Source: a virus. Taken from it: a DNA stretch of 31,170 nt. The notes under the pieces are model-generated. The model ran no database searches, was not told the origin of the DNA, and saw only the letters and a program-made list of their open reading frames with translations. This document shows, piece by piece, positions 1-31,170 of this stretch. The stretch lies in the IMG/VR virus record IMGVR_UViG_3300030329_002211, positions 1 through 31,170 of that record; one strand, 5' to 3'. Positions within the stretch are counted from its first letter, which is position 1, and every line of letters starts with the position of its first letter. The position numbers and the translations under genes were made by a program.

Positions 1-206
1 CAAATCGGCTTCTGCATCCAATAATTCCCATGCTGTTAATGGGCAATCATTCTCAACAAGTGCAAAGATTGCATTCCTTAGTTCATCGCTCCTCTACAAA
101 GCTCGCCACCCGATTATTTAGTTTTTAAAAACTCCTTTTCTTAATTCGATATGTATACAATACATGACTACTTTACAGTTGTCAATACCCTATATCATGT
201 ATTTTG
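1..206. repeat. Terminal repeat, left copy (variant)
   Basis: Bases 1-87 are identical to 30869-30955 and 130-206 to 31094-31170. Between them a 42-base block (88-129) replaces 138 bases of the right copy. The left copy therefore carries only the tail of the gene at 30791-31087, with its N-terminal half lost and a TAG in the residual frame, plus a full copy of the promoter. Shared ends show that the sequence is circular, circularly permuted or terminally redundant. The replaced block is either real strain variation or an assembly-end artefact. Confidence 0.9.
157..185 (-). promoter_or_regulatory. Promoter, left copy of P1
   Basis: On the minus strand the -35 TTGACA is at 185-180 and the -10 TATTGT at 162-157, spaced 17. 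It is identical to the promoter at 31121-31149 because it lies in the terminal repeat. In this copy the gene downstream is broken. Confidence 0.7.
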
Positions 207-273
207 GTGGCAATCGCAAATACATAGAGAATTGGAACAATCTGAATGCAATCCATAGACGCAGACTAATGTT

Positions 274-387
274 TTAGACTTGGTTGCGGTGTTTACATCT
301 GGTACAGACAATGACAGTCCCTTTTGTGGCCTTTTCTGCTAGCTTCTTATTACAAACCCGACAGCGTAGAGCCTTAATAGTCACCAT
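274..387 (-). CDS. Com-like small zinc-finger protein
   Basis: This is a 37-residue protein with two CxxC pairs: LRCRVCNKKL near residues 7-16 and VCTRCKHRN near 27-35. The spacing and the CNKxL and CxRCKxxN contexts match the Com zinc-ribbon family (phage Mu Com, a translational activator of mom, is the named member), shortened to the finger alone. The start ATG (387-385) lies inside the last codons of terminase, whose TGA is at 383-381, behind a GAGGGAG ribosome site, so the two are translationally coupled. Metal binding is well supported. A role as a nucleic-acid-binding regulator of late genes is inference. Confidence 0.7.
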   Translation of the reverse strand: MVTIKALRCRVCNKKLAEKATKGTVIVCTRCKHRNQV

Positions 388-1712
388 ACTCCCTCACCTG
401 CGAAATCCACAAATGTCATAGATAGAGCATCGGCTTCATCTGGAGAATTAGCCATCTTCTGCTTGCTTTCTAATATAACACTTTTATCTGACCTGATTTC
501 GTATCTTCTGCCAATCAACTGGCCTATTAGTGATTCCTCATCTGGGATACTGCCGCCCGATTCCAACCAATCCTTCATGGCAAACCATGCCTCTGTACTC
601 TGGTTGCCAAATTCTGACTTTCTAAAAGCCGCCGCACCTGCTTTAAACGGAACTATGTATTTGTCTGGGATAGTTTCTTTTAGCCTGTCAGTAACGCCGC
701 CCCCTAGCCCAGTATCATCAATAACTACAGTATCAACTGGATTATCAGAGCAATACCTTCCAATCCATCCTGCAACAGTCATCAAGTCTCTTCCCTGAGT
801 CTGCCAGACTATTTCCGAATGATTGCCCTGCCTTTTAAAAATTACAGTTTTATCTTTCCCGAATCTGGCGATGTCACAGCCCAGAACAACATCTCCTTCT
901 GGTTCTGCTGTCCTCTGGGCCGCTATTTTGACTGTATTGAAGTTGATTACAGTATCATCCAAGTCCTCGACAAATTCGCCTAAAACAGAGCCTTTATATA
1001 ATGCAGAATCTTCTCCCCATTCCTGCCGCCTTTCCTCAACATCTTCCATTGACATCATGCCGCTGATAACAGTCTTATTCTGCTGTATATTCGGCAGGTC
1101 ATATGCAGATATTGATATAGGTTTCCAGATGTCTCTTCTGCTGTGGTGGGAATCGTAGAACTCCCCAGAGGAAACAAAGGCGTTGCCTGTCATAATTATG
1201 CACTTGGGATTAAGTCGCCTCATGGAATTAATATCTGACCTAGAAACAGCATGAGCCTCTGTAATCACAACAAGCAGATTTGGAGAGTGAAACCCCTGCA
1301 AATTAAATTCATCATCAGACGAGAAGCCCAAAGCAAAATGCTGTTCATCAAACTGGTATCTGGGAGTTCTAAAGACACGCCCTTTAAATGGAACTCTGGA
1401 GTTCTTATAGGCGTTCCTGATTTCATTAAATACTATTTCATCAACTTGCCTGTATGTTGGGCCTGTAACAATAGCTTTTGCAGGGTATCTGGTACACATC
1501 CACCAGAGGACTATTCTGGCAGTTGTCCAATCTTTCCCAGAGCCATTACAGCCAACAACTGAAACCCTGCGATTGTCCCTGACAGCTTCCATCATTTCTA
1601 TCTGTTTATCGTAAGGTGTTGCCCCCAACACCTCTTTCATGAAAAATCTGGGGTCAAGTAGCTTCTGGTAAGCTGTTAGCTCCACCGAGTTCTGTATTGT
1701 ATCCGTTGTCAT
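381..1712 (-). CDS. terL: Terminase large subunit (packaging ATPase/nuclease)
   Basis: At 443 aa it has the usual size of the DNA-packaging motor subunit, which docks on the portal, pumps DNA using ATP and cuts the concatemer. A Walker A-like loop GCNGSGKDWTTAR lies at about residues 54-66. The Walker B strand is LLVVITEAHA at about 145-154, with Thr where Asp is usual, followed by the catalytic Glu. The C-terminal RNase H-like nuclease shows GCDIARFGKDKT (about 278-289), VVIDDTGLGGG (about 330-340) and DEADALSM (about 425-432), each with acidic residues for metal binding. It overlaps the small subunit gene by 59 bases. The start is not certain, because an in-frame GTG ten codons later is also possible. 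Confidence 0.95.
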   Translation of the reverse strand: MTTDTIQNSVELTAYQKLLDPRFFMKEVLGATPYDKQIEMMEAVRDNRRVSVVGCNGSGKDWTTARIVLWWMCTRYPAKAIVTGPTYRQVDEIVFNEIRNAYKNSRVPFKGRVFRTPRYQFDEQHFALGFSSDDEFNLQGFHSPNLLVVITEAHAVSRSDINSMRRLNPKCIIMTGNAFVSSGEFYDSHHSRRDIWKPISISAYDLPNIQQNKTVISGMMSMEDVEERRQEWGEDSALYKGSVLGEFVEDLDDTVINFNTVKIAAQRTAEPEGDVVLGCDIARFGKDKTVIFKRQGNHSEIVWQTQGRDLMTVAGWIGRYCSDNPVDTVVIDDTGLGGGVTDRLKETIPDKYIVPFKAGAAAFRKSEFGNQSTEAWFAMKDWLESGGSIPDEESLIGQLIGRRYEIRSDKSVILESKQKMANSPDEADALSMTFVDFAGEGVW

Positions 1713-2109
1713 GGGCTATCTTTGCCAACTCATCAATACTAATCCTTACTGGGCCGCCGTCTGCTCCTGTTATCTGCGTTGGAGCGTCTAACCCTGATAT
1801 TGCTCTCTGCCCATTAATTATAGACAAACATAATTCTGTAGCTTTCGGGTCTCCATTCAATGCGTTGGGCCAATGTGCTAATAATAACCTCTCATACCTT
1901 GCCATTGTCAAAGTTCTTAACTCGTCTGCTTGTGGAGAAAAAGAATCTGCCAACTCTCCCAGAACTTTCCTGATGTCTTTATGAATCTGGACATTAGATA
2001 CCCCCAGAGCCTTTGCAATGCTTCTCTCCGTCCCCCCTGCCATCTTCATATCTAATGCCTTGTATCTTCTCATCTGGCGGACTATTTCACGTTCATTCTT
2101 TTTGGGCAT
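1654..2109 (-). CDS. terS: Terminase small subunit (DNA recognition)
   Basis: This 151-aa protein has a basic N-terminus and a helix-turn-helix at about residues 25-50 (GGTERSIAKALGVSNVQIHK), then helices suited to ring oligomerisation. It lies directly upstream of the large subunit, as in most tailed phages, and would bind the packaging site and load the motor. The ribosome site is AGAGG about 9 bases before the ATG and lacks the AAGGAGTTAG leader of the early genes. Assignment rests on size, the HTH and position. Confidence 0.85.
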   Translation of the reverse strand: MPKKNEREIVRQMRRYKALDMKMAGGTERSIAKALGVSNVQIHKDIRKVLGELADSFSPQADELRTLTMARYERLLLAHWPNALNGDPKATELCLSIINGQRAISGLDAPTQITGADGGPVRISIDELAKIAHDNGYNTELGGANSLPEAT

Positions 2110-2207
2110 ATCTTATACCTCTATTTTTTATGAGCAGTTTTAAGTCATATTACATTTGATATTTTCATTGCTAACCCCTTTGGATGGTGGGAATTACCCC
2201 ACCATCC
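2110..2207 (-). promoter_or_regulatory. Hairpin across a stop codon and tiny leader ORF
   Basis: A perfect 10-bp inverted repeat (2182-2191 with 2198-2207) closes a 6-base loop that contains the TAA of the DUF2958 gene. No U-tract follows, so it looks more like an RNA stability or processing element than a terminator. Below it, AAGGGGTTAGCA precedes a seven-codon frame (MKISNVI, stop near 2149) that could be a leader peptide for the small terminase. The hairpin is clear; the leader is weak. Confidence 0.55.
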
Positions 2208-2493
2208 TGATTTCTTCCGTTGTGATGTTATCGTCCCAGTTCTTGTCTCTTTCCATTCCCAAGCCGCCTATCTTGATGCTTTCTAATTCGGCTAATGTGA
2301 AGTATCCCATCTCCATCTCATGCCCATCAACTAACCCAAAAAATACCCCTTTGCTCGCATCGTACTCAACTGCATACCATGTCCAATTACTGAATGGGTG
2401 AAAAAACTTTGCATAAACCCTGTGTTCAGTAGCTCCATCTGTTTCGTATAGAGCAGGCATCTTGGCTTCAATTGCTTTAGTCATTAATTTCAT
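2194..2493 (-). CDS. DUF2958 domain protein
   Basis: This 99-aa protein has the features of DUF2958, a small domain common in phages and plasmids: start MKLMTKAIEAKMPALY, central VYAKFFHPFSNWTWYAVEYD, then FFGLVDGHEMEMGYFTLAEL and an MERDKNW segment. Its biochemical role is not established to my knowledge. It is led by AAAAGGGAGTTAG and sits between a small zinc protein and the terminase genes. Its position suggests an accessory, host-directed role, but nothing in the sequence proves this. Confidence 0.85.
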   Translation of the reverse strand: MKLMTKAIEAKMPALYETDGATEHRVYAKFFHPFSNWTWYAVEYDASKGVFFGLVDGHEMEMGYFTLAELESIKIGGLGMERDKNWDDNITTEEIRMVG

Positions 2494-2520
2494 TTGTTCT
2501 AACTCCCTTTTCTCTAATAG

Positions 2521-2670
2521 TTATTTAATTCTTTTTTCCATACATCCGACACAATGCCAACCCTGACAATATGACGGAATATTTTTGTGTCCGTCACATT
2601 CATCAATCCACTCAACAAATTGACTTCCACATTTTGAACATTCCTTCAGCCATTGTTGTCTGTTATCCAT
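2521..2670 (-). CDS. Small Cys-rich (zinc-ribbon-like) protein
   Basis: A 49-aa product with CSKCG at residues 11-15, a lone Cys at 25, and CQGWHCVGC at about 36-44, enough ligands for one or two zinc sites. ATG at 2670 follows the standard CAGGAGTTAG leader at 7-base spacing, and a promoter (2710-2738) lies directly upstream, which together support a real gene despite its size. It opens the unit leading to DUF2958 and terminase. Function unknown; a small nucleic-acid-binding or protein-binding adaptor is possible. Confidence 0.7.
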   Translation of the reverse strand: MDNRQQWLKECSKCGSQFVEWIDECDGHKNIPSYCQGWHCVGCMEKRIK

Positions 2671-2709
2671 TGCTAACTCCTGTTTTCACTTTCGATATTT
2701 GATGTATAT

Positions 2710-2738
2710 AAGATACAGCATCTATTTACGGTTGTCAA
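2710..2738 (-). promoter_or_regulatory. Promoter P2 (TTGACA dyad family)
   Basis: The -35 TTGACA is at 2738-2733 and the -10 TATCTT at 2715-2710, spaced 17. The dyad is degenerate in its second half (TTGACAACCGTAAA). It drives the 2670 gene and probably DUF2958 and terminase. Confidence 0.75.
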
Positions 2739-2745
2739 GGGGTTA

Positions 2746-3048: not shown

Positions 3049-3224
3049 TAAATCACTTCTCCCCCTGTTGCTAGAATCTTTCCAGTATTGACCCCATTGG
3101 CCTTCAACTGGAGAGATATTTTTTCGTATATATCAGCACTTGCATCCCTGCTGTCTGGCAGGCATCTCCACCGTATTAAATCCAGAATCCTGAGAGCATC
3201 ATGAGAATCAATTGTTATCTCCAT
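3048..3224 (-). CDS. Small hypothetical protein, 58 aa
   Basis: Starts MEITIDSHDALRILDLIRWR, continues with PDSRDASADIYEKISLQLK, and ends GKILATGGEVI. The start is supported by CTAAAGGAGTTAG seven bases before the ATG, and the end by the TAATG junction with the next gene. A short beta strand followed by helices suggests a compact dimerising or regulatory protein, but no family is recognised. A strong hairpin (3239-3258) sits between this gene and the one upstream. Confidence 0.7.
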   Translation of the reverse strand: MEITIDSHDALRILDLIRWRCLPDSRDASADIYEKISLQLKANGVNTGKILATGGEVI

Positions 3225-3238
3225 TTTCTAACTCCTTT

Positions 3239-3272: not shown

Positions 3273-3530
3273 TTATCCTATTGGTATCTCTTTAGGTGAA
3301 TCGATATCGTAATTAAACAATTTACTGATTCTGAACATTTGCCCTTTCATCGCTTCAAAGACTTCATCCCTCTCTTTCTTTGTGAGGTCATGGCATATAC
3401 ATGGCCCTGCTTCATCCTCATCCACAGTTCCTACTTCATCCGTGCAATTCTCAAACACATATCCGACTGTGTCGGATAATCTATTAAAAAGAATGTCTTG
3501 AGCCTTGTATTTCATTTCTGTCTTAGTCAT
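3273..3530 (-). CDS. Small acidic hypothetical protein
   Basis: An 85-aa acidic protein with a helical N-terminus (MTKTEMKYKAQDILFNRL), an acidic middle (CTDEVGTVDEDEAGPCIC) with three Cys, and a charged helical end. Acidity and small size are common in phage proteins that mimic DNA or inhibit host enzymes, but there is no motif to assign one. ATG at 3530 follows a CAGGAGTTAG leader, and promoter P3 lies just upstream of this gene. Confidence 0.75.
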   Translation of the reverse strand: MTKTEMKYKAQDILFNRLSDTVGYVFENCTDEVGTVDEDEAGPCICHDLTKKERDEVFEAMKGQMFRISKLFNYDIDSPKEIPIG

Positions 3531-3563: not shown

Positions 3564-3592
3564 AGTATATATGACTATTTGACAGTTGTCAA
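3564..3592 (-). promoter_or_regulatory. Promoter P3 (perfect dyad)
   Basis: -35 TTGACA at 3592-3587 and -10 TATACT at 3569-3564, spaced 17, with the full TTGACAACTGTCAA dyad over the -35. It drives the gene at 3273-3530 and what follows. Confidence 0.85.
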
Positions 3593-3597
3593 CCCCC

Positions 3598-3891
3598 CTA
3601 TTCTATATACCCTTCAACAACTGCTCCAACTTCAATCCTAGTAGGAACCGTTGGTTTTTTACAGCATTTAGAACGAAAAGCCACATACTCATTTTTTTCA
3701 TTTACAAACCACATAACCTTTAACAACTCAGGCCACCGCCAATCACCTGTGTATGTTACTTCAGAGAATAGCTTATGCCTGCGATTGTTCACCATCCACC
3801 TGCTACCACAACCCAGACATTTAACCCTGCGGACATCCCTTCTGGCCTTATGATAATCCTGATAAATAAATTGTTCCTTCTCTAGCTCCAT
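3598..3891 (-). CDS. Zinc-ribbon hypothetical protein
   Basis: A 97-aa protein with CLGCGSRW at about residues 25-32 and KCCKKP at about 74-79, forming a probable four-Cys zinc ribbon. Trp-rich segments lie between them (TGDWRWPELLKVMWFV), with a hydrophobic C-terminal strand. The start follows AAAAAAGGAGTTGGC, a one-base variant of the leader, and lies within the last codons of the previous gene (10-base overlap). No family recognised. A nucleic-acid-associated role is plausible from the ribbon. Confidence 0.75.
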   Translation of the reverse strand: MELEKEQFIYQDYHKARRDVRRVKCLGCGSRWMVNNRRHKLFSEVTYTGDWRWPELLKVMWFVNEKNEYVAFRSKCCKKPTVPTRIEVGAVVEGYIE

Positions 3892-4265
3892 CTGCCAACT
3901 CCTTTTTTATATTTCTTGGTTTTAGTTGTTCCCCATCCTTCTGGAACATTGGGGATTTCATTTTGTAGCCTTCCCTTAACAGCCAATTCATCAGGAATAT
4001 CAATGTCAATGTACTCCTCATCATCAACTGGTGGAATCGTCTGGGGGTCAGGCTCACTAGAACTCCTTTTTTGATTCGCCAGTTCCATTGAATACCTTAA
4101 TGACCCTAAATCATTTACTGTCTCCATATTGGCTTCTGCAACCTCTATTTGCGTACTAATAGACTTCCTGAGTCTGTTCAGTTGCGTATCCAGTTCATTA
4201 GCCACTTTCATCAATGGCCTTATATGCTCTGGAGCCTTTCGGATTGTTTTACTTCTATATTTCAT
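3882..4265 (-). CDS. Hypothetical coiled-coil protein with acidic linker
   Basis: This 127-aa protein has a basic helical N-terminal half (VANELDTQLNRLRKSISTQI is heptad-like), then a proline/acid-rich linker (PPVDDEEYIDIDIPDEL), then a basic C-terminal tail (TTKTKKYKKGVGRWS). The charge layout suggests a small scaffold or DNA-associated factor, but no family is recognised. It is the first gene after promoter P4, led by TAAGGAGTTAGC, and follows the RusA-unit terminator. Confidence 0.75.
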   Translation of the reverse strand: MKYRSKTIRKAPEHIRPLMKVANELDTQLNRLRKSISTQIEVAEANMETVNDLGSLRYSMELANQKRSSSEPDPQTIPPVDDEEYIDIDIPDELAVKGRLQNEIPNVPEGWGTTKTKKYKKGVGRWS

Positions 4266-4295: not shown

Positions 4296-4324
4296 AAGTT
4301 ATCACAATTCTTTACAGTTGTCAA
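4296..4324 (-). promoter_or_regulatory. Promoter P4 (TTGACA dyad family)
   Basis: -35 TTGACA at 4324-4319 and -10 TAACTT at 4301-4296, spaced 17, with a half-degenerate dyad (TTGACAACTGTAAA). It starts directly after the intrinsic terminator at 4335-4382, so a new unit begins here. Confidence 0.75.
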
Positions 4325-8009: not shown

Positions 8010-8225
8010 TTAACTCCTTCTAAATGGTTTCGGTATCATCCATATCCCACCACCATTGTGCATGGCAGGCATCAAAACTTTTTCACAGTCTCCAAGCTTG
8101 TCCTTCAGAATCAACTGGTGAACTCTCTGTCTGGAAATGCCGAAATGTTCAGCACACTCCTTCATAGTTCCCCATTGGTCTGGGTCAAACTCTTGGCCTG
8201 TGTTACTAATTATTTTTGAGACCAA
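8010..8225 (-). CDS. Small helix-turn-helix protein
   Basis: A 71-aa protein with a clear HTH at about residues 21-45: TMKECAEHFGISRQRVHQLI, then LKDKLGDCEKVL, as in MerR/Xis-like or plasmid-type DNA-binding domains that use a first-helix ECAEHFGIS. The start is TTG 8225, ten bases after a strong GGAGGTG. It is the first gene of the promoter P5 unit that includes the replication genes. It is the best visible candidate for the regulator of the shared TTGACA dyad promoters, which is inference. Confidence 0.75.
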   Translation of the reverse strand: MVSKIISNTGQEFDPDQWGTMKECAEHFGISRQRVHQLILKDKLGDCEKVLMPAMHNGGGIWMIPKPFRRS

Positions 8226-8276: not shown

Positions 8277-8305
8277 ATTTTACTTGGTATATTGACAGTT
8301 GTCAA
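8277..8305 (-). promoter_or_regulatory. Promoter P5 (perfect dyad) abutting the pentamer array
   Basis: -35 TTGACA at 8305-8300 and -10 TAAAAT at 8282-8277, spaced 17, with the full dyad TTGACAACTGTCAA. The last TGNNN pentamer of the array ends at 8306, so the array runs without a gap into the -35 box. The leader 8226-8276 holds a spare AAAAAGGAGTTA and a ten-codon TTG frame (LEVIMNWSQK) before the HTH gene. Confidence 0.85.
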
Positions 8306-8860
8306 TTACACCTCAACTCACATCACCTCACTCCTCGACTCCACCGCAACTCAATTTCAACTCACCTCATCACTCGGCTCCAAACCAAACCACAACAACA
8401 CACCCCATTACTCGCATTCATTTCACATCACCTCACCACTCGACATCAATCTAGTTCATGCCATACCACTTCACCCCTCGACATCTGCTCACGTCACAAC
8501 ATCCCACATCTCGACTTCATTTCAAGCCAGTTCATTGCATACCACGGCACCCCTCGACATCAGTCCACCGCACTCCACTCCTCGACTCCATTCCACTTCA
8601 TTTCAACTCACATCTCGACATCAGTTCACCTCATTCCACAACATCCGACTTCATCCCTCGACTGCAAATCATTACAATTTCACTCCATCTCTCGTCTTCA
8701 ATTCACACCATCTAATTACATTACTCGGCTTCACTCCATATCAGCCCAGAGCAATCCTCGGCTCCATTACAAGTAATATCAAATCTCGGCTTCAAGGCAT
8801 GACCTATCAGACCAATTCTCGGCTCCAAGCCAAGTCACAACAACACACCCCTCGTCTACA
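8306..8860 (-). repeat. Pentamer (TGNNN)n array punctuated by 16 TGRWGYCGAG-like cores
   Basis: Read on the minus strand, this gap is almost wholly TGNNN pentamers, grouped between 16 cores ending in CGAG (plus-strand CTCG at 8334, 8373, 8411, 8439, 8477, 8510, 8553, 8581, 8614, 8657, 8691, 8724, 8757, 8785, 8818, 8851). Core-to-core distances are 39, 38, 28, 38, 33, 43, 28, 33, 43, 34, 33, 33, 28, 33, 33: all 5n+3, with two having one extra base. Each unit is CGAG, three linker bases without C, then 3-6 TGNNN and a TGRWGYCGAG-like core. By my count 78 of 84 pentamers keep TG, while the NNN vary freely. The 5' end overlaps the stop codon of the RAMP-like gene. This is not a CRISPR, iteron or microsatellite of any kind I know. 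Confidence 0.93.
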
Positions 8861-9554
8861 CTTCCACAAACTGCTTTATCTCGTAGCGACCCCAACCCTG
8901 TGACCGTTCAGCACCCATGCCATGTACAGAGCCATATTCCAGTATGCTCTCAATATGACTCATATTTATGATGCCGTCATTCAACAGTTTTATTGTCACT
9001 TCAAAATACGGATTTATCACGTAATCAATGTGCTTGATGGCAGAGCGTGGCCCTTGCCTAGTCATCACCTGTATATACCGCACTTCTGTGTCCACAACCT
9101 CTTTATAAGGCTCCCCATCCTCTTTATATAGAGGAATAAGGTCATCCATCACATAAAGCCTGTTTACAACCTTAGAACGGAAGTTTTTAACATCCTTATG
9201 AAAGTTCTGGACTTGCAAAGCACAGTCCTTTAAATGCCCCCTGACAGAGCGGCCTTCATAGACCAGAGTGTTAGTCACGTTGTGCTTAAAAGTAGACCAA
9301 CTGGGGATGTAGTCCTCATCATCCTCATCCTGTACATCCACCTGACTTACCACCTTGTCCACCAGTTCCTCTACTGGGATTGCGTCCTCTGGTTTCTTGG
9401 TGGGCATTCGATGCTCTAACATCGCCCTGATTTCTGTTTCACTTCTGGGCAACTGCCCACCGAAAAGGCCGTCAATCTGAAACCCTAGCTTGTAGATTTT
9501 CCAGATTGCTTCCTTCTTTTTGCTCTTCACTTCAACCTTAATTTCTTTAGCCAT
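8856..9554 (-). CDS. RAMP (Cas7/Cas6-like)-fold protein, array-associated
   Basis: This 232-aa protein begins with a basic segment and a strand-helix region (WKIYKLGFQIDGLFGGQL). An acidic linker follows (about residues 60-82), then YIPSWSTFKHN and TLVYEGRSVRGHLKDCALQV, recalling the SxKGxLR loop of Cas7-type proteins. The C-terminus has FEVTIKLLNDGIINMSHIES followed by GSVHGMGAERSQGWGRYEI (about 208-226), a GxGxxRxxGxGR motif typical of RAMP RNA-binding proteins. RAMPs bind or cleave RNA, often as filaments. The gene is led by AAAAAGGAGTATTA, preceded by a structured RNA, and its stop codon lies inside the first core of the pentamer array. The fold call rests on motifs only; the family is not named here. 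Confidence 0.6.
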   Translation of the reverse strand: MAKEIKVEVKSKKKEAIWKIYKLGFQIDGLFGGQLPRSETEIRAMLEHRMPTKKPEDAIPVEELVDKVVSQVDVQDEDDEDYIPSWSTFKHNVTNTLVYEGRSVRGHLKDCALQVQNFHKDVKNFRSKVVNRLYVMDDLIPLYKEDGEPYKEVVDTEVRYIQVMTRQGPRSAIKHIDYVINPYFEVTIKLLNDGIINMSHIESILEYGSVHGMGAERSQGWGRYEIKQFVEV

Positions 9555-9792: not shown

Positions 9793-10077
9793 TTATTCAT
9801 AGGCTTCTCCTTCTAAATATGCAAAGCTGTATACAGTCTTGCGAACTTTGGTCAGAAGATTGTTTATTAATTGCCAATCTTCTCTTTGGTGAGCCAAAGG
9901 TAATTCATCAAAATTGTCCTGTATGGTTGCAAGGTCAGATGCTATTAGACGGAAAGCATTTCTGGCATTTCTTGTGGCATCTTCCACATCCTGTATCGAC
10001 TGTGTGATACTCAATGAAATATCCTTTAGCTCATCCCTCATGGCATCGATAATTGCATCATTTCCTTCATGGCTCAT
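9793..10077 (-). CDS. Hypothetical all-helical protein
   Basis: 94 aa, predicted wholly helical: MSHEGNDAIIDAMRDELKDI, SITQSIQDVEDATRNARNAF, then a short amphipathic C-terminus. It is the first gene after promoter P6, with an AAAAAGGAGTTAG leader, and lies upstream of the structured RNA and RAMP-like gene in the same unit. Coiled-coil-like heptads suggest an oligomer. A small-subunit-like helical partner of the RAMP protein is a possibility from position only. Confidence 0.7.
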   Translation of the reverse strand: MSHEGNDAIIDAMRDELKDISLSITQSIQDVEDATRNARNAFRLIASDLATIQDNFDELPLAHQREDWQLINNLLTKVRKTVYSFAYLEGEAYE

Positions 10078-10116: not shown

Positions 10117-10145
10117 AGTGTATATGGTCTATTGACGGTTGTCAA
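10117..10145 (-). promoter_or_regulatory. Promoter P6 (TTGACA dyad family)
   Basis: -35 TTGACA at 10145-10140 and -10 TACACT at 10122-10117, spaced 17, dyad TTGACAACCGTCAA. It drives the helical gene, the structured RNA, the RAMP-like gene and, by read-through, the pentamer array. Confidence 0.75.
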
Positions 10146-10221: not shown

Positions 10222-10596
10222 CTATAAATCGCTCTCTGCGGCTGTGGACTTACGCTTTTTCAGCCCAAACACCCTGCCGAGTTGCAATTTGGTCTTTAAC
10301 TTGGCTTTTGGAGTAGCGGCATTGTTATAATTCCATTCACCGCCAAAATTTCCAAAAACATCAACGCATCCTTTCTTTTTGCATATTGCAATCGACCAAG
10401 AACCTCTAGGGCTTGCTACTGTCCAGATGTGGCGGCAGTCTTTATCGATTCTCTGTTTATCATCGAGTTCCAGTAACTTCATCCAACCATTGAGAACTTT
10501 TCTGGTGACTCTAAATTTCTTCATTACCTCTTCTTCTGAACTGCCATTAACCAGATAATTCATGGCCTCTACTTTTCTCTGTATCGCTGTTAGCAT
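10222..10596 (-). CDS. HTH and zinc-site hypothetical protein
   Basis: 124 aa. Residues 1-40 form a homeodomain-like HTH (NGSSEEEVMKKFRVTRKVLN, then GWMKLLEL), as in transposase-type or TerS-type DNA-binding domains. The middle has DCRHIWTVASPRG and AICKKKGCVDVFGNFGG, a possible three-Cys/His metal site, and the C-terminus is basic (KAKLKTKLQLGRVFGLKKRK). It is probably DNA-binding; specific role unknown. Led by AAAAGGAGTATTA after a nested hairpin. Confidence 0.7.
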   Translation of the reverse strand: MLTAIQRKVEAMNYLVNGSSEEEVMKKFRVTRKVLNGWMKLLELDDKQRIDKDCRHIWTVASPRGSWSIAICKKKGCVDVFGNFGGEWNYNNAATPKAKLKTKLQLGRVFGLKKRKSTAAESDL

Positions 10597-10677: not shown

Positions 10678-11595
10678 TTATGCCCTGCCGTTGACTATCA
10701 ACCGCTCAACGTATCTTTCTTTTGTCCATTGGTACACCCCACCTTCATACTTAGATGGGTCAACTTCAAAATGAGTGTTCTGACACCACTTATGAGATTC
10801 CCACTCATAGCCTGTTTCTTTCCCCTCAGATGTATACTGGGTAACCGTAGAAGGTTTGCAGTTGGCTCCGACCTTTGCGTGTCCATGTCTGATGATATGA
10901 GTACACGCCTCACATTGCATGGTTCCCTGCCGATATGTTCTGCCAGTTCTTGGATTTGTAACTCTTCTCTCGGCCTCTGTGTTATGAGTGGGGAAAAACT
11001 CAAAGTCTACGCCTTCCGCTTTCGGAGCATCCGATGGAATATCTAGTTCATCAAAATCCTCAACAAACTCTCTGGCACTACGCCTTGCCCATCCTGCTCC
11101 CCCACCTTGCGTCCTAGCCCAAACGTCATGGTTAGCCTCATCACCCATAGAAGATAGCCAGAAGGCTATCTGTTGGGCTATGTCCCACTTAACCTTGAAA
11201 ACGGTTTTGGTAGGGCTATGCCTGTAAAGATAATTTACATACTGTCCGATTGAACAAAACTCCGAAACGTCATTAGCTCTAGCATTCACCTTGAAACGCC
11301 TATCAGATTCACCCAGATACTCTTCATGAAGTCTGGCTTTTTCTGCATCTAAATCTGTATTCTCATCCGCTGATTCAATCACGGCATCAAACGCTTGCCA
11401 GAACTTTTCGTTCTGTTGCTCTCTGTACTTCCAACCCCTATTAAGAACCTGTATGGCTCTCCTAGACATACAAGAGGGCGTGGGTGGCTCTTCCGTAATG
11501 TTCTGGGTGAACCCAAATTGAGAGGTAGATATTGCAACCATTTGGGTCTTCTCGTCCCACCAACATTTTTTTGCTCTTCCTCGATAATTGCTCAT
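10678..11595 (-). CDS. Hypothetical protein, 305 aa
   Basis: Begins MSNYRGRAKKCWWDEKTQMV. I prefer ATG 11595 to GTG 11604, because the AAGGAGTTA site is too close to the GTG. The N-terminal half is largely helical (RAIQVLNRGWKYREQQNEKF, then SADENTDLDAEKARLHEEY). The C-terminal part is Cys/His-rich (TMQCEACTHIIRHGHAKVG, then HKWCQNTHFEV), a probable zinc site. No catalytic motif or family recognised. It lies alone behind promoter P7, with a hairpin after it. Confidence 0.7.
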   Translation of the reverse strand: MSNYRGRAKKCWWDEKTQMVAISTSQFGFTQNITEEPPTPSCMSRRAIQVLNRGWKYREQQNEKFWQAFDAVIESADENTDLDAEKARLHEEYLGESDRRFKVNARANDVSEFCSIGQYVNYLYRHSPTKTVFKVKWDIAQQIAFWLSSMGDEANHDVWARTQGGGAGWARRSAREFVEDFDELDIPSDAPKAEGVDFEFFPTHNTEAERRVTNPRTGRTYRQGTMQCEACTHIIRHGHAKVGANCKPSTVTQYTSEGKETGYEWESHKWCQNTHFEVDPSKYEGGVYQWTKERYVERLIVNGRA

Positions 11596-11630
11596 TGTTT
11601 TCACTAACTCCTTATTAACTTAATGTAAGC

Positions 11631-11659
11631 ATAGTATCAATATACTTGACAGTTGTCAA
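11631..11659 (-). promoter_or_regulatory. Promoter P7 (perfect dyad)
   Basis: -35 TTGACA at 11659-11654 and -10 TACTAT at 11636-11631, spaced 17, full TTGACAACTGTCAA dyad. It drives the 305-aa gene and the HTH gene after it. Confidence 0.85.
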
Positions 11660-11683: not shown

Positions 11684-12910
11684 TCAAGCCAACGCCACTC
11701 TATTTACTATTGTTTGGGCTATCCCATTGAACGTATCATGTTTCTTAACTGTAGCCTTTACTCTGATAATTTCTCCCTCATTTGCCTCTAGTTTTTTAGA
11801 GCCAAACCAGACTATCTGGTTGCCATTCATATTGAACTTATGAAGAACTGATACACCAAATTGGCTCTCGATGTATTTCACCTCAGTTAGAACTACGTTA
11901 TCAAAAACCTCACGCTTTCCAATCTCACCCATGTGAACAGAGGTGTCTACCTGCTCTTTTCGGGCTTCTTCCCTTGCTTTTGTATTTATCATGTTCTGGT
12001 AAGCGATAACACCGCTAACTGCTATTCCTATAGTCCTGCTTGTAGCAAAGCCTTTCTCAGCAATAATTCCAAGATTGTTGAGGTAATCTGTATCAGACCC
12101 TTTTAAAGTTAGCATCCAATCCTTAACTACTTGTGCCTCTGGGCTAAGAGTAGCTTTTGATGTGTTCTTTAATCCTATAAGCACTTTCTGCTTGGTGGTG
12201 TCCTCATCTGTGTAAGAGGTAGTCCAATCATTTGCCATGCCTACTGAAACCCATCCATTGGTTTCCACTTCCCTGTGAGCCAATTCTAAAACGGTGTCTA
12301 AATCAAAAGTTTCTACTGCTTGCCCATAAATGCTGTGAGTGGTTTCAAAATCTGCATCGTTTATAAACGTATGTAAACTTGTCATGTAAGATGCAATTTT
12401 GTTAGGGGAATCCCATCCAAGAAAGTCCTTAATACAAGTTGTGCCAATAACTTTATGGCTACCATCAAGATGCTCTACTATAAAAGCCCCTTTCCTATTC
12501 CTCTTGAGTCCACAATGGTCACATTCTCCATTTTCTACCCTTGCCCTCTCATCATCAGATGCGTTAGCGTGTCCACCAAATTCCATGCCATCTCTGGTTA
12601 CATATACTGTAATAGACCATCCTTTTAGGCTTGGCCCCTGTCCTAAGACTTTAACGTCTACGAACTCAATATTCCTTAGTTTTAAAAACTTTTGATGAGT
12701 AGTGGGCTGACACCCACAGTTGTTATCATGGTGGTGGTCTAGATTCCCATATTCATCAACAACATAGGTTTTAGAATATGTCTCAGAAACTATTTCCATA
12801 GTAGGTAAGTCACATCCTAGTTTTTCTGCTCTTTTTGCAAGTTTTTCAATCTTGCGTTCTAGGGCAAACTTGTTTGCTGTAGGGATACTGAAAATTTCCT
12901 TACCTGTCAT
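11684..12910 (-). CDS. Zinc and OB-like hypothetical phage protein
   Basis: 408 aa. An N-terminal helical region precedes a His/Cys-rich stretch (HHHDNNCGCQ near residue 60). CDHCGLKRNRKGAFIVEH (about 134-151) is followed by VIGTTCIKDFLGW, giving four cysteines of a zinc-binding module that I associate with large uncharacterised phage and plasmid proteins. The C-terminus (GNQIVWFGSKKLEANEGEII, then RVKATVKKHDTFNGIAQTI) looks like an OB-fold, suggesting nucleic-acid binding. Led by AAAAAGGAGTTAGC behind promoter P8. Function unknown. Confidence 0.75.
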   Translation of the reverse strand: MTGKEIFSIPTANKFALERKIEKLAKRAEKLGCDLPTMEIVSETYSKTYVVDEYGNLDHHHDNNCGCQPTTHQKFLKLRNIEFVDVKVLGQGPSLKGWSITVYVTRDGMEFGGHANASDDERARVENGECDHCGLKRNRKGAFIVEHLDGSHKVIGTTCIKDFLGWDSPNKIASYMTSLHTFINDADFETTHSIYGQAVETFDLDTVLELAHREVETNGWVSVGMANDWTTSYTDEDTTKQKVLIGLKNTSKATLSPEAQVVKDWMLTLKGSDTDYLNNLGIIAEKGFATSRTIGIAVSGVIAYQNMINTKAREEARKEQVDTSVHMGEIGKREVFDNVVLTEVKYIESQFGVSVLHKFNMNGNQIVWFGSKKLEANEGEIIRVKATVKKHDTFNGIAQTIVNRVALA

Positions 12911-12951: not shown

Positions 12952-12980
12952 ATAGTATCAGTAAACTTGACAGTTGTCAA
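12952..12980 (-). promoter_or_regulatory. Promoter P8 (perfect dyad)
   Basis: -35 TTGACA at 12980-12975 and -10 TACTAT at 12957-12952, spaced 17, full dyad. It drives the 408-aa gene. The region around it differs from P7 at only a few bases. Confidence 0.85.
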
Positions 12981-12999: not shown

Positions 13000-13356
13000 C
13001 TAACTTTTTAACCTTTGTTCGCCAGTTCTTTCTTCTTCAAATGCTATTGTGGTTGCCGCTATCATATTTCTCCATGTGTTATAGCAATTAACATGGTAGA
13101 CGGTTTTGATGTTCCGCTCGCCAGAAAACATATCCTCATGCTCAACATGAAATATGACGTTCTCCCCTGTTTTAACACCGTCACACATAACCTCTTTGAG
13201 CATTGGTTCTATGTCTTCTACATCGCCGTACTCACAGGCTGATTCAAACTTTGCAGTTATAGCCCTGTAGATGTTTCTTTTGGCATCCAATCTATCTAAA
13301 TTGGTGACTATATCCTGCATTTCACCTTCTGCATTTATGTACTGGGCTTTTTTCAT
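13000..13356 (-). CDS. Hypothetical protein, 118 aa
   Basis: Begins MKKAQYINAEGEMQDIVTNL, with a helical start and a mixed middle (FESACEYGDVEDIEPMLKEV). A strand-rich part, VIFHVEHEDMFSGERNIKTV then YHVNCYNTWRN, carries His and Cys that could bind a metal. No family recognised. It is the first early gene after the late block and has its own promoter P9 and the AAAAAGGAGTTAG leader. Confidence 0.7.
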   Translation of the reverse strand: MKKAQYINAEGEMQDIVTNLDRLDAKRNIYRAITAKFESACEYGDVEDIEPMLKEVMCDGVKTGENVIFHVEHEDMFSGERNIKTVYHVNCYNTWRNMIAATTIAFEEERTGEQRLKS

Positions 13357-13389: not shown

Positions 13390-13418
13390 AGTATATATAG
13401 CTACTTGATAGTTGTCAA
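13390..13418 (-). promoter_or_regulatory. Promoter P9 (TTGACA dyad family)
   Basis: -35 TTGACA at 13418-13413 and -10 TATACT at 13395-13390, spaced 17, dyad TTGACAACTATCAA with one change. It separates the end of the late block (13455) from the early block. I see no clear terminator between them. Confidence 0.8.
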
Positions 13419-27251: not shown

Positions 27252-27862
27252 TATCGCCCCCTGTACTGAAGTTTTAATTTAGCAATCTCCAGTTTGACCC
27301 GAACATTTGTAGCGTCTAAGGCAGTTTCTTCAACCGTGTCAGAGGCTTTAAGTTCGGATTCGTCAACTAATATGTTGTTATCAGATTTGGCAGAAATGGT
27401 TTGAGTCTGCGGACTAGCTCCACGAATAACGGTACTAACTTCAACCCAATCCAAATCTTTAATTCTACGTGTTTGATTTTTGCCTTCACCTTCATATTCC
27501 CATCCTTCTTCTGGGACATTGAAGCCAACAGACCATTCACGAACAAATCCACCCTTAATATTACTGAAGGCTTCTCGTCCTGATTGTGTCTCTAAATTCA
27601 TTTGCATTAACGTATGCAACCTGTACTCATCATCTGCTATATGAACAGGTCGGGCTGACAATACTTTTCCTACTATTGCCTGACTGTCATGACCTGCTAG
27701 TACAGGAATGGGTAGATTCTTGGCAATCGAACCGTTGAAGGCTACTGGGTCGATAACATCGCCATCTGAATCCACAACACCCATAGAATTAGTAAATGCC
27801 TCTATTAATCCCTGAGTGGAATCCACTTCTTTAATATCTGTGGTTATAGTTTTCTTTATCAC
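27251..27862 (-). CDS. Prohead protease (HK97 gp4/U35-like)
   Basis: 203 aa. The herpes-type/HK97 protease core is seen as FTNSMGVVDSDGDVIDPVAF (about 27-46), AGHDSQAIVGKVLSARPVHI with the likely catalytic His (about 58), and FVREWSVGFNVPEE with the likely Ser (about 110). WVEVSTVIRGASPQT closes the core, and a charged helical tail ends near residue 203. It cuts the scaffold part of the capsid protein during head maturation. GTG 27862 overlaps the portal stop (GTGA) after AGAAGGAGTATTA. Confidence 0.9.
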   Translation of the reverse strand: MIKKTITTDIKEVDSTQGLIEAFTNSMGVVDSDGDVIDPVAFNGSIAKNLPIPVLAGHDSQAIVGKVLSARPVHIADDEYRLHTLMQMNLETQSGREAFSNIKGGFVREWSVGFNVPEEGWEYEGEGKNQTRRIKDLDWVEVSTVIRGASPQTQTISAKSDNNILVDESELKASDTVEETALDATNVRVKLEIAKLKLQYRGR

Positions 27863-29919
27863 GCTAATACTCCTTCTGGCTTATATCCTCTGGGCATAGG
27901 TATCCAACTTAATGTGCCGTTTGGATGGTCTATTATGTTGAATGCATCGTTGGCCCTGTAAACTTGTCCATCTCTCTCAATACATGTTCTGCCATATGGG
28001 TCTCCTGATGGCACATATGTGTCATTCGGGTCACCATCTACATCGTATGCCCTGACATACTCAAAGCCCTGATTTCTGAAAAGATTAATACTGGTTAAAT
28101 TCTGGCTTCTCATCACTTCCGTTCTTGCAATTAATTTCGCCCTTTTCTTGGACTCATTCATAAGAGAGCGAATACCTGCAAAATTATCAGCAGGCACTCC
28201 TCTAGCCAGTTGGTCGATACTGTAACCACGCTCAAACGCCATCTGTATTAGCTTCTGCACGTTTTTCTTGGTCGTGTTGTGGATTAATGTTGCCCTGACA
28301 GGTGATTCAGTTAACACGCCTGCCACAATAGGAGATGCCTCAGACCATGCAACATCACCTGCAACACCACTAGCATTAATTATTCCAAAGGTATTCTTGG
28401 AGACATCAAGAAACATCCTGTAGAGAATTTCACTTAAATTACCAATGTCTGCATCTGGAACTAAATCAGCGGCTGAAAAGGGGTATCCTTTTGCCTTGTC
28501 TATATCAATATCTCTGGATAAATTCCGCCCGATTATTCCATCAGCCCTGTTCTGCAACTTTGTAAAGTAGCCCTCAAGGATAGGTGTCCATTTATCCGAT
28601 AACTCATCCCTGTTATTGTTTAAAGTTTCCCCCATTTTGATTCCTCTGGGAGCTACTGGGGCTTTTGCTTTATCGGCTGATAATAATGATTGGAATCCTG
28701 TAGGTAATGCAGTTTCTAAACTGGGATTCATGGACTCTATAATGTTAGAGGGGAGCCTTCTTACTTCCCCTTCATCTATTGCCTCTTGTCCTACCATTTT
28801 TCTGGCTTCATTCAGAGTAATTATTCCTGCATCGAATAAGGCTGTTGCCCTTGCATCTGTGCTTTGCTTATCATCCAAGAAACTACGGATTTCAGACAAA
28901 TCAACAGCAATTTTTTCGTTAGTTCCTGTATCAATGCAGTAATTAAGAAATCTAACCACCCTGTTAATTAATGGCTCTAGGGTCTCGCTATGGAATGAAA
29001 ATCTGGCCTCTCTGTAATTAGAGAAGGTACTTCTCTGAAGCCCTACATTCGCCGATATTAAAATAGGCGGAACTCCAAGAACAGAACAGATGCGAGATTC
29101 TGTATGGTTGTGCAGTTCTGTTAATGCCATATCAGCAGGAGCAGATGCCATCTGTTGGTACTCAGCGTCATCATCTAAAACAGCTACTTTATGGAAGTTT
29201 CCTGTTCCCCCGAAACTACTCCGCCATCTTGCCCTGATTCTGTTGGCATCTTCCTGATTGGTTAACCTTCTTTTAACTTTAAGTAATCCAGATGGCACAC
29301 CTGCATTTTCAAAATATACTTTGGCAAAATCTGTCATGCTCATATCCAGATTAATAGTCTTTGCCAGTACATGTAATGGACTCAGGCCATACAAGTCCCC
29401 TGATGGGTTCGGAAATGCCATATGCCCAACATCTTCTTTGTCTAGGAAATATTCTTTGCCATCAATGGTATAGCTGTATCCCTTTACACCTTCCCCAGAG
29501 GGCAAAATAGCGACTCTATCAGGCCGCAGTAGGTGAATGTATACAATTTGATTGCTACGGCTTCTTTCCTTCCACACATAAGCATTTCCAGATACATAGA
29601 GATATGTGACAAGCCTTTCAATCCAAGTGTAGAAATCCTGTCTCTCATTTGGGTATTTCAACAGGTTGGCTAATGGAGAATTTTCAACCTCAACCATTCC
29701 ATCTACTGAATCAGCCTGAGAATAGTATCTGGCTGTTGCAACACCTGTAGCAATTTCCTTTATACAGGCATTAACTACAGCAGATTTCCCATAGCCCTGA
29801 GATGAGTAATTAGCATAGTTGTCCTCTGGATACATAACAGAGGATAAATCATTGACTAGCGGAACAGTAGACGCTATATCTACTTCTGCTTTTTGAAACA
29901 TTGATAACCAGTTAGGCAT
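27859..29919 (-). CDS. Portal protein fused to a MuF-like head protein
   Basis: 686 aa. Portal core: YGKSAVVNACIKEIATGVAT near residue 44, FYTWIERLVTYLYVSGNAYV, YGLSPLHVLAKTINLDMSMT, GVPSGLLKVKRRLT, LGVPPILISANVGLQRSTFS (about 287-306). From about 430 a second domain ends in the MuF/SPP1 gp7 type: AKLIARTEVMRSQNLTSINL, CIERDGQVYRANDAFN, DHPNGTLSWIPM. The portal is the ring through which DNA is pumped; the MuF part acts in head assembly or early infection. Usually two genes, here one. The ribosome site GGGGG lies in a small hairpin. Confidence 0.9.
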   Translation of the reverse strand: MPNWLSMFQKAEVDIASTVPLVNDLSSVMYPEDNYANYSSQGYGKSAVVNACIKEIATGVATARYYSQADSVDGMVEVENSPLANLLKYPNERQDFYTWIERLVTYLYVSGNAYVWKERSRSNQIVYIHLLRPDRVAILPSGEGVKGYSYTIDGKEYFLDKEDVGHMAFPNPSGDLYGLSPLHVLAKTINLDMSMTDFAKVYFENAGVPSGLLKVKRRLTNQEDANRIRARWRSSFGGTGNFHKVAVLDDDAEYQQMASAPADMALTELHNHTESRICSVLGVPPILISANVGLQRSTFSNYREARFSFHSETLEPLINRVVRFLNYCIDTGTNEKIAVDLSEIRSFLDDKQSTDARATALFDAGIITLNEARKMVGQEAIDEGEVRRLPSNIIESMNPSLETALPTGFQSLLSADKAKAPVAPRGIKMGETLNNNRDELSDKWTPILEGYFTKLQNRADGIIGRNLSRDIDIDKAKGYPFSAADLVPDADIGNLSEILYRMFLDVSKNTFGIINASGVAGDVAWSEASPIVAGVLTESPVRATLIHNTTKKNVQKLIQMAFERGYSIDQLARGVPADNFAGIRSLMNESKKRAKLIARTEVMRSQNLTSINLFRNQGFEYVRAYDVDGDPNDTYVPSGDPYGRTCIERDGQVYRANDAFNIIDHPNGTLSWIPMPRGYKPEGVLA

Positions 29920-29921
29920 GT

Positions 29922-29940
29922 AACCCCCATGACTTGGGGT
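29922..29940 (-). promoter_or_regulatory. Hairpin over the portal ribosome site
   Basis: CCCC (29939-29936 on the minus strand) can pair with the GGGGG that precedes the portal ATG by about 5 bases, with a seven-base loop. The short stem would hide the only ribosome site of this gene. Weak by itself, but it follows two strong hairpins. Confidence 0.4.
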
Positions 29941-29970
29941 ACTTGCCTAGACCACTATTGCAAATATATC

Positions 29971-30043
29971 AAAGAAAAACCACCCTAGCAACCTAAGAGA
30001 ATCATCGATTAGGTTTGTATTAGTAAGAAGGCTACTAGGGTGG
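29971..30043 (-). terminator. Intrinsic terminator upstream of the late block
   Basis: CCACCCTAG (29980-29988 on the plus strand) pairs perfectly with CTAGGGTGG (30035-30043), with an inner 7-bp stem (29990-29996 with 30009-30015), followed on the minus strand by TTTTTCTTT. It ends the three-gene unit and lies in front of the portal. No promoter of the phage family follows it, so expression of late genes may depend on read-through or an unseen late promoter. Confidence 0.8.
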
Positions 30044-30044
30044 C

Positions 30045-30075
30045 CCCTGCTCACGGAGTCAGACGATGAGCAGGG
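30045..30075 (-). promoter_or_regulatory. Hairpin directly after the 30079 gene
   Basis: CCCTGCTCA (30045-30053) and TGAGCAGGG (30067-30075) form a perfect 9-bp stem with a 13-base loop, two bases before the terminator stem. It may be a part of an anti-termination or processing structure. Confidence 0.7.
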
Positions 30076-30078
30076 ATA

Positions 30079-30288
30079 TTATCTCTTTGAATACTGGTTT
30101 GCCAATCTATTTACTTTGGTCAAAACCGCTTTAAGATTTCGCCCCCTCATTCGGACTGGCTCTGCGTAAATTGTTGGGTCGTATACAGCGAATGCCGCAT
30201 TCCTGAGGATGTCTATGTCTAATGTCTCAAATCCAATTAATTGTTCCATATCGCTGAATTTCTCTAGTTCGCTATCTGTAAAACTCAT
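30079..30288 (-). CDS. Small hypothetical protein, paralog of 30791-31087
   Basis: 69 aa: MSFTDSELEKFSDMEQLIGF, then ETLDIDILRNAAFAVYDPT and a basic tail (RMRGRNLKAVLTKVNRLANQ). It shares MSFT at the start and the pattern LxGxxxxxxxxLRNAxFA with the 98-aa protein at 30791-31087, so the two are paralogs. Helical; no family. AAGGAGTTAG leader. Last gene before the terminator. Confidence 0.7.
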   Translation of the reverse strand: MSFTDSELEKFSDMEQLIGFETLDIDILRNAAFAVYDPTIYAEPVRMRGRNLKAVLTKVNRLANQYSKR

Positions 30289-30300
30289 TTTACTAACTCC

Positions 30301-30705
30301 TTATCCACTATCCCAATTTCTAAAAGTCTTTTTCTCTGAAATAATTGTTTTAGAAGAATCCAAATTCACTCGTATTCTTTTCAGCGTCCCTCTTACTTTA
30401 TTCCCATCTTTCCATTCTGCATAATCAGAAAAGTCTTCATTGTAATCTGCATACCAATCCACAAATTCTCTAGCTCCTTTTGGGCCTAATTCTCCAGTAT
30501 GTGTTATCTCCCATCCCTTCTTTATTAATCTTTCAAGTTCAGCTTTTGCACTTCCCAATAATGACAATTCTGATTGAATCCCATCTAGCTTTACAGCGTT
30601 AGTATTTATGGTCTCATTCGGCCCATATGCTACTGTATGATGTAGGGTTTCTGTCTGCATAGGGTTAACCGCTATAAACATTACTGTGACTTGGATTTTA
30701 TCCAT
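30301..30705 (-). CDS. Hypothetical protein, 134 aa
   Basis: Begins MDKIQVTVMFIAVNPMQTET, with a strand-rich first half, then a helix (ELSLLGSAKAELERLIKKGW), and a charged C-terminal half (FVDWYADYNEDFSDYAEWKD, then RGTLKRIRVNL). No family recognised. In the early-type unit between promoter P1 and the late-block terminator, with AAAAAGGAGTTAG leader. Confidence 0.7.
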   Translation of the reverse strand: MDKIQVTVMFIAVNPMQTETLHHTVAYGPNETINTNAVKLDGIQSELSLLGSAKAELERLIKKGWEITHTGELGPKGAREFVDWYADYNEDFSDYAEWKDGNKVRGTLKRIRVNLDSSKTIISEKKTFRNWDSG

Positions 30706-30746
30706 TTCACTAACTCCTTTTTACTATGGTTATCTGCCATCATCAG

Positions 30747-30785
30747 AGCGAGTAGATAAAGTCTCGCTGACCCTTACGAGAGGGT
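30747..30785 (-). promoter_or_regulatory. Two tandem intercistronic hairpins
   Basis: ACCCT/AGGGT (30770-30774, 30781-30785) and AGCGAG/CTCGCT (30747-30752, 30763-30768) follow the stop at 30791 and precede the ribosome site of the 30705 gene. No U-tract. They match the habit of this genome of putting a compact stem in intergenic gaps. Confidence 0.6.
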
Positions 30786-30790
30786 TTCGG

Positions 30791-31087
30791 CTAGTTCTGC
30801 CTTACACCTCCTATATGCATGTGAATCCCTCTCCTGACTTCATATTCTCTCGCCATGACTTCTGTCATCAAATCGGCTTCTGCATCCAATAATTCCCATG
30901 CTGTTAATGGGCAATCATTCTCAACAAGTGCAAAGATTGCATTCCTTAGTTCATCCCTTGATGGATATGTCCCAACCAATTCTTCAACCTGATTGAAGTG
31001 GTTGGTCATTTGGTCATCAAAAAGCGGCTGTAATGCGTATGGACTGCTATGCTGTAACCATCTTATGTTTGCTTCTGTAAAACTCAT
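30791..31087 (-). CDS. Small hypothetical protein in the terminal repeat
   Basis: 98 aa from ATG 31087, nine bases after AAAAGGAG; a longer frame from 31129 would include that ribosome site. Residues: MSFTEANIRWLQHSSPYALQ, VEELVGTYPSRDELRNAIFA, then LTAWELLDAEADLMTEVMAR. Helical, paralogous to the 30079-30288 protein. It is the first gene after promoter P1. In the left copy of the terminal repeat only its C-terminal part remains. No function assigned. Confidence 0.75.
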   Translation of the reverse strand: MSFTEANIRWLQHSSPYALQPLFDDQMTNHFNQVEELVGTYPSRDELRNAIFALVENDCPLTAWELLDAEADLMTEVMAREYEVRRGIHMHIGGVRQN

Positions 31088-31170
31088 TTCACTAACTCCT
31101 TTTCTTAATTCGATATGTATACAATACATGACTACTTTACAGTTGTCAATACCCTATATCATGTATTTTG
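30869..31170. repeat. Terminal repeat, right copy (intact)
   Basis: This is the intact partner of 1-206. It holds most of the gene at 30791-31087, its ribosome binding site and its promoter. On a closed circle the sequence continues into 207 onward, so the Com-like gene and terminase lie just upstream, in transcription order, of this promoter. Confidence 0.9.
31121..31149 (-). promoter_or_regulatory. Promoter P1 (TTGACA dyad family)
   Basis: -35 TTGACA at 31149-31144 and -10 TATTGT at 31126-31121, spaced 17, dyad TTGACAACTGTAAA. It drives the three small genes up to the terminator at 29971-30043. Confidence 0.8.

Follow-up and report, generated by a model that had tools for sequence, protein, structure and literature searches.

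We describe a family of promoters in the 31,170-base virus record IMGVR_UViG_3300030329_002211 (here called the window, meaning the whole stretch of DNA at its full length), in which the -35 box TTGACA doubles as the first arm of an inverted repeat, TTGACA-NN-TGTMAA. Nine distinct promoters of this kind lie on the minus strand, and we consider it probable that their dyads are the operator of one repressor, which would act throughout the non-structural region by blocking the -35 box at each promoter. An earlier note made from the letters alone had listed nine such sites and an additional end copy; the nine are confirmed as distinct promoters, the tenth being the copy at the other end of the window (Table 1, where each promoter is named after the first base of its -35 box).

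As previously noted, TTGACA and a spacer of exactly 17 bases are present at all nine promoters, and they are followed by a TAnnnT -10 box with 1-3 mismatches from TATAAT (TAACTT at 4324). The sequence TTGACAACTGTCAA is found unchanged at four sites (3592, 8305, 11659 and 12980), with one change at four others and in the 185 copy, and with two changes at 2738; the near-identity of the sites therefore holds, with one or two changes rather than the one to three first reported. The four sites had also been called perfect dyads. They are identical, and the 6-bp arms TTGACA and TGTCAA are perfect inverted copies, but the central bases AC break the symmetry and the palindrome as a whole is not perfect. 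Each dyad lies 59-80 nucleotides (nt) upstream of a start codon, with a ribosome site that is mostly of the AGGAGTTA type. Every plausible gene of the window is on the minus strand, and every dyad of the TTGACA-NN-TGTMAA type falls outside real genes, 4324 overlapping only a 42-codon mechanical open reading frame (ORF). The nine units started by dyad promoters are all outside the structural block (approximately 13.8-29.9 kb, from the portal gene at 27859-29919 down to genes near 13.5-14.6 kb), and zero dyads were found within that block. Divergent promoters sharing one symmetric -35 box were considered for the window and rejected, since the start-codon promoter scan gave no plus-strand promoter and reading gave no fitting -10 box. 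An RNA hairpin was set aside by reasoning only, since a loop of only 2 nt is too short to close, and the element is upstream of its own transcript.

The repetition of the element clearly exceeds chance, as the two strands of the window hold 21 matches to TTGACAACTGTCAA with up to 3 mismatches, with 4.31 expected and 0 of 100 shuffles reaching 21. Relatives were gathered from IMG/VR by terminase searches and by an alignment search with the helicase, and full or long records were read (names such as G001 denote these relatives). We then used a test blind to the second arm: promoters were chosen by TTGAC, a -10 box at a spacing of 17 or 18 and a start codon 50-110 nt further on, and the arm was scored afterwards, as a match to at least 4 of the 5 letters of GTCAA with a spacer offset of 3, leaving out the 185 copy. 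The second arm was present at this offset in 25 of 28 promoters from five lineages (window 9/9, G001 4/4, G010 3/4, G011 4/5, G034 5/6; the misses are G010 25790, G011 28472 and G034 2215), against a mean of 0.54 and a maximum of 5 promoters in 20,000 spacer shuffles. At the other offsets from -3 to 15 the arm was seen in at most 3 of 28 promoters, offset -4 being trivial because it is TTGACA itself. The earlier note had proposed a search for the dyad in related phages as a check, and the constant offset across lineages supports well its idea of a regulon-wide operator built into the promoters. A de novo search for 10-mers in upstream regions was too weak for most relatives; in the window the dyad tops the list, being present in 11 of 20 regions, whereas shuffles gave no more than 8.

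The near relatives of G001 (G002, G005, G009 and G035) have the arm in 10 of 10 promoters, and the other, more distant relatives in 1 of 18 promoter-like sites. These counts bear on the explanation that the second arm is no repressor site but belongs to an extended promoter, which RNA polymerase or a phage-altered sigma factor would read. Indeed, the arm keeps a constant distance from the -35 box and occurs at almost every promoter recognised in the dyad genomes, but it is missing at 17 of those 18 sites, and relatives integrated in host genomes have TTGACA-17-TAnnnT promoters without it. Moreover, it is the first arm inverted, with a lineage-variable centre that polymerase contact would not need, and we regard this explanation as very unlikely. 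An IMG/VR scan for the exact 14-mer followed by a -10 box gave 29 stretches, and 20 such unrelated viral records were searched whole: 18 had one site and 2 had two. Since unrelated records carry one or two sites, the ninefold multiplicity is peculiar to the phage group of the window. As a separate observation, in the unrelated L017 (1217-1245), L032 (near 383-396) and L040 (near 2025-2038), one TTGACAACTGTCAA apparently serves as -35 box for two divergent promoters.

The register of the dyad is constant across the five lineages, while its centre and second arm are genome-specific. The majority versions are TTGACAACTGTCAA in the window, TTGACATATGTAAA in G001, TTGACATANGTTAA in G010, TTGACAANGGTTAA in G011 and TTGACAANNNTAAA in G034; G002, G005, G009, G035, L012, L044, L045 and L046 group with G001. 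Orthologous genes carry the dyad in the version of their own genome, as was seen for the DUF2958 gene (window, G009, G010), the 408-amino-acid (aa) gene (window, G001), the gene of a 71-aa helix-turn-helix (HTH) protein (window, G001, G002, G035, G034) and the 118-aa gene in different lineages. In both the window and G001, the large terminase and portal genes flank the last dyad promoter. At orthologous promoters the 14-mer is retained and the spacer and flanks are altered, in a comparison biased by the selection of sites by motif. For distance comparisons we used hand-picked sites (9, 7, 6, 6 and 6 from the window, G001, G010, G011 and G034, including the degenerate G010 5798, G011 28472 and G011 30165), and for the comparison within genomes and between orthologues G009 and G005 contributed one further site each. 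The mean difference at positions 7-14 was 0.219 within genomes and 0.409 between orthologues. An exact-arm dyad search in G033, G017, G020, G019, G018 and G040 gave no alternative shared operator.

We also asked whether the dyad could belong to the host. Cellular genomes hold 16 terminase relatives (7 of them in one chromosome), all from entries titled Chloroflexi, Chloroflexota or Dehalococcoidia, so a member of the Chloroflexota is most likely the host of this virus; speculatively, such phages may infect the marine SAR202 clade. The exact host may differ from these genomes, as the guanine plus cytosine (GC) content of the window, 42%, is below the 56-70% of the cellular-genome relatives. TTGACANNTGTNAA is absent from 9 of 10 of these host genomes and occurs at one palindromic site in the tenth, and therefore the dyad is not a general host promoter element. 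It could nevertheless be read by a host-encoded repressor, such as LexA or another palindrome-binding protein, with the phage following a host signal. Of 8 lexA loci examined in Dehalococcoidia, 7 have LexA-type boxes, GAAC-N4-GTNC, close to the gene, an exact box of the GAAC-N4-GTAC type covers the spacer and -10 box of promoters in the host-integrated relatives L121 (3055-3083) and L122 (9777-9806), and the AC-N4-GT format is common to the LexA box and the dyad. The window, however, holds 0 GAAC-N4-GTTC/GTAC boxes and thus no LexA (SOS) operator of this form, the arms TTGAC/GTNAA are unlike GAAC/GTTC, and TTGACANNTGTNAA is rare in the host genomes (the low-GC host of this virus possibly being different); we consider a host regulator of the dyad unlikely. 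Because the L121 and L122 boxes match those near host lexA, some phages of the wider group may be under the control of host LexA, though not through the dyad. Weaker LexA-type forms were noted in L120, L123 and L134. Separately, one Dehalococcoidia chromosome, OY282355.1 (L127-L133), contains seven terminase copies over 2.5 Mb, each 38% identical to that of the window.

In the mechanism that we propose, each promoter would be a strong, sigma-70-like promoter of host type with a 14-bp operator placed exactly on the -35 box, TTGACA forming one half-site and the inverted TGTMAA, two bases on, the other. A symmetric pair of one trans-acting protein would cover the -35 box and exclude RNA polymerase, and the non-structural transcription units, probably the early ones, would be shut down together. 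The first half-site would be fixed by RNA polymerase, with the centre and second half-site free to drift between lineages. The anatomy, the register, the conservation in five lineages, the absence from late genes in the window and the absence from host genomes as a general element are read from the sequence; protein binding, repression and timing are what we infer. The earlier note had spoken of one repressor or activator, and a repressor appears to fit better: activation should be unnecessary, because a consensus -35 box and a 17-nt spacer are found at every promoter, and repression by exclusion is the natural reading of a symmetric site over the -35 box. A phage activator bound at the dyad and recruiting polymerase would leave the same anatomy, and class II activators can overlap the -35 box, but the nine window promoters, with TTGACA and a 17-nt spacer, would normally be activator-independent, which makes an activator highly improbable. 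That all units are early, as had been suggested, would follow from their non-structural gene content and may not hold for every one of them, because the 2738 unit runs into the terminase genes.

The likeliest binder is the 71-aa protein made from the 8305 promoter, a putative winged HTH, an assignment that we make tentatively, and its action could be a self-limiting shut-off like that of lambda Cro. Alternatively, the binder may be encoded by the host, or be a phage protein that escaped recognition. Outside structural, packaging and lysis genes, the HTH and helicase genes alone occur in all five dyad lineages, and the 71-aa protein is the only non-terminase HTH found in all of them (other HTH genes of G001, G010 and G011 were sought by eye in protein lists). 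Homologues at 38-62% were found in G001, G002, G018, G017, G020, G019, G010 and G011, and further ones in G033, G034, G035 and G040; in the recognition helix, R32-Q33-R34 show no variation among nine HTH sequences. Constant outer arms together with a constant recognition helix would be compatible with this protein as binder, a weak argument. Its gene lies directly behind a dyad promoter in the window, G001, G002, G035 and G034; in G010 it is the fourth gene after one, and in G011 a degenerate site precedes it. In G001 and G002 it has two dyads, TTGACATAGGTAAA on the -35 box and TTTACATACGTAAA near the start site, and the HTH promoter of G035 likewise has a second dyad near the start site; among the genomes compared, extra copies were seen only in these three. 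Because the HTH promoter carries two dyads in G001 and G002, the second one suggests autoregulation. An AT-hook-like tail (GRPK, GRPR or GRPS) was observed in the homologues of G010, G011, G017, G019, G020 and G034, and is missing in the window and G001. A 124-aa ORF (10222-10596) was also considered as shared regulator and rejected, as it has a weak transposase-type HTH match but no relative in the genomes compared.

The structure model of the 71-aa protein (mean predicted local distance difference test score, pLDDT, 81.8) best matches lambda Xis (Z 6.0, root-mean-square deviation 1.3) and BldC (Z 5.8, root-mean-square deviation 2.1) over 47-48 residues. Among other matches, the best Foldseek expectation value (E) is 0.16, the Pfam HTH_17 match (E 0.037) is below the cut-off, and a PHROG excisionase scores E 0.0049. 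The best Pfam match is Sigma70_r4 (E 0.0015, below its cut-off), accompanied by a weak rpoD row (E 0.86), and the helix SRQRVHQL is similar to that with which sigma-70 reads the -35 box. The repressor might thus read the -35 hexamer by mimicking sigma region 4, with Xis-like monomers as an inverted pair, an idea that we think decidedly unlikely. If it were true, polymerase would lock one half-site and leave only the second free to evolve, and this would be a repressor class with its specificity anchored on the core promoter itself.

Several observations weigh against the proposed operator or against its candidate binder. The spacer positions 15-23, outside the dyad, show the same trend as the dyad, more weakly (0.527 within genomes, 0.717 between orthologues), and because these spacers are also more alike within genomes, promoter duplication or shared ancestry inside genomes, judging from this comparison, accounts for part of the likeness of the dyads. 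Taken to its extreme, one promoter cassette would have been duplicated across the genome, with a functionless inverted arm: the flanks of several window sites (D3-D5) are 60-80% alike, and G010 has three near-identical copies. Separate lineages, however, keep the inverted arm in register with different letters, and orthologous promoters keep the 14-mer despite diverging flanks, so that we give very little credence to a pure copying artefact. No integrase or classical repressor was recognised among the proteins scanned, and the switch may serve either lysogeny or lytic shut-off. Dyad promoters are absent from four relatives that do have the HTH gene, namely G019 (18.5 kb) and the long records of G017, G020 and G033; G018 and G040, which also have the gene, show just one each. 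Over 10 lineage pairs, operator distance at positions 7-14 did not correlate with HTH divergence (Spearman 0.05, p 0.88). Lambda Xis binds direct repeats head to tail. The same arrangement is described for BldC (PMC5859096), the other nearest fold, and the window element is an inverted repeat. The suggestion that the 71-aa protein is the regulator thus keeps it as the best phage candidate, with the direct repeats of Xis and BldC, the dyad-less relatives and the lack of divergence tracking against it.

The general plan is known from other phages, and the dyad family seems undescribed. In phiC31, one repressor acts on many operators with conserved inverted repeats. One repressor with many operators is also reported for P1, P7, phi105, L5 and Bxb1, the operators of P1, P7 and phi105 being asymmetric (PMC1934351); those of the window would share the plan but are dyadic. 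Cluster A phages such as L5 and Bxb1 have many near-identical repressor sites per genome, genome-specific between relatives, with a correlation of motif distance and repressor distance (PMC6550527), and the repressor of this group whose structure has been solved is monomeric and has two DNA-binding domains (PMC9283540). The L5 operator GGTGGCTGTCAAG overlaps the early promoter Pleft (PMC1934351), and by direct reading its reverse complement contains TTGACA. The window resembles L5 in its several near-identical sites per genome; the L5 sites, in contrast, are asymmetric, 13 bp long, mostly off promoters and also stop elongation, whereas those of the window are dyads with a 2-bp centre, all at promoters. 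No Cluster A-type immunity repressor was recognised in the window proteins scanned. CvkR of CRISPR-associated transposons is a MerR-type winged-HTH dimer that represses through the promoter palindrome AnnACATnATGTnnT (PMC9938897), which the G001 dyad core ACATATGT resembles in form; CvkR, however, has its own dimerisation domain and sites in the spacer or over the -10 box and start, and the 71-aa protein is without an obvious dimerisation domain. The window has two features of a multi-operator phage repressor regulon, namely nine near-identical sites and a fixed register over promoters. What is distinctive is the dyad form, the -35 box as obligatory half-site at every window copy, and the host group; a literature search mostly outside subscription papers found no such regulon in Chloroflexota phages. 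Among GenBank phages there was no DNA match to the window and no match to the 71-aa protein, and terminase identity reached at most about 33%.

Table 1. Dyad promoters of the window and two genes of the 8305 unit
Feature	Position	Strand	Dyad	-10 box	Context
Promoter 31149	31121..31149	-	TTGACAACTGTAAA (17-nt spacer)	TATTGT	Starts unit 30791-31129, type II hammerhead, 30301-30705, 30079-30288
Promoter 185	157..185	-			Other-end copy of 31149, probably the same physical site
Promoter 13418	13390..13418	-	TTGACAACTATCAA	TATACT	Upstream of 118-aa gene 13000-13356
Promoter 12980	12952..12980	-	TTGACAACTGTCAA (exact)	TACTAT	Upstream of 408-aa gene 11684-12910 (phrog_2319)
Promoter 11659	11631..11659	-	TTGACAACTGTCAA (exact)	TACTAT	Upstream of 305-308-aa gene 10678-11604
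Promoter 10145	10117..10145	-	TTGACAACCGTCAA	TACACT	Upstream of 94-aa gene 9793-10077
Promoter 8305	8277..8305	-	TTGACAACTGTCAA (exact)	TAAAAT	Upstream of HTH gene and replication module
Promoter 4324	4296..4324	-	TTGACAACTGTAAA	TAACTT	Upstream of 127-aa gene 3882-4265
Promoter 3592	3564..3592	-	TTGACAACTGTCAA (exact)	TATACT	Upstream of 85-aa gene 3273-3530
Promoter 2738	2710..2738	-	TTGACAACCGTAAA	TATCTT	Upstream of 49-aa ORF, DUF2958 gene and, after these, both terminase genes (small subunit, large subunit)
71-aa winged-HTH gene	8010..8225	-			Made from 8305 promoter; candidate operator binder
AAA_25 helicase-like gene, 435 aa	5601..6908	-			Same transcription unit as HTH gene; query used for finding relatives

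The ends of the window had been described as a terminal repeat, which is not borne out cleanly. Two blocks match (1-90 with 30869-30958, and 123-206 with 31087-31170), with an unequal interior of 32 bases on the left and 128 on the right, the left copy losing part of the 112-aa gene. This is probably a wrapped contig end with a strain variant, and for that reason the promoter copies 185 and 31149 are probably one physical site. The 31149 transcript includes a candidate type II hammerhead ribozyme at 30728-30792 on the minus strand (RF02276, 34.1 bits, E 1.1e-5 in a short search, just under the gathering score of 37), and the relative G033 (L183) has two, of 40.9 and 31.2 bits, with different stem sequences. 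Between the 8305 promoter and a 232-aa ORF (8856-9554, minus strand) lies an array of strict period 5, approximately 580 nt long (8299-8880, minus strand), with TG in one phase of 5 (67/90), interruptions by CGAG every 28, 33, 38 or 43 nt (5n+3; a few at 34 or 39) and a strongly C-rich plus strand; it was absent from the 20 relatives tested and had no match in phages or Rfam. The 232-aa ORF that borders it closes with a glycine-rich loop, faintly matching the C-terminal part of Cas6 (Pfam E 0.08), and has no relative in viral contigs. Among the relatives, a group I intron (L101 19455-19688, 98 bits) adjoins the split major-capsid ORF of G002, and a transfer RNA gene (L104 15180-15252) stands just before the small terminase gene of G010.

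In conclusion, the dyad promoters would amount to a regulatory code that spans the genome and can be read without any data beyond the sequence, in a phage group for which every terminase relative in a cellular genome is from Chloroflexota. Because the promoters have consensus -35 boxes, an ordinary laboratory host suffices for testing them. If the HTH protein binds the dyad, it would be a very small shut-off switch. The five lineages, with their different centres and second arms, would represent a natural experiment in the evolution of an operator of which one half is fixed by RNA polymerase.

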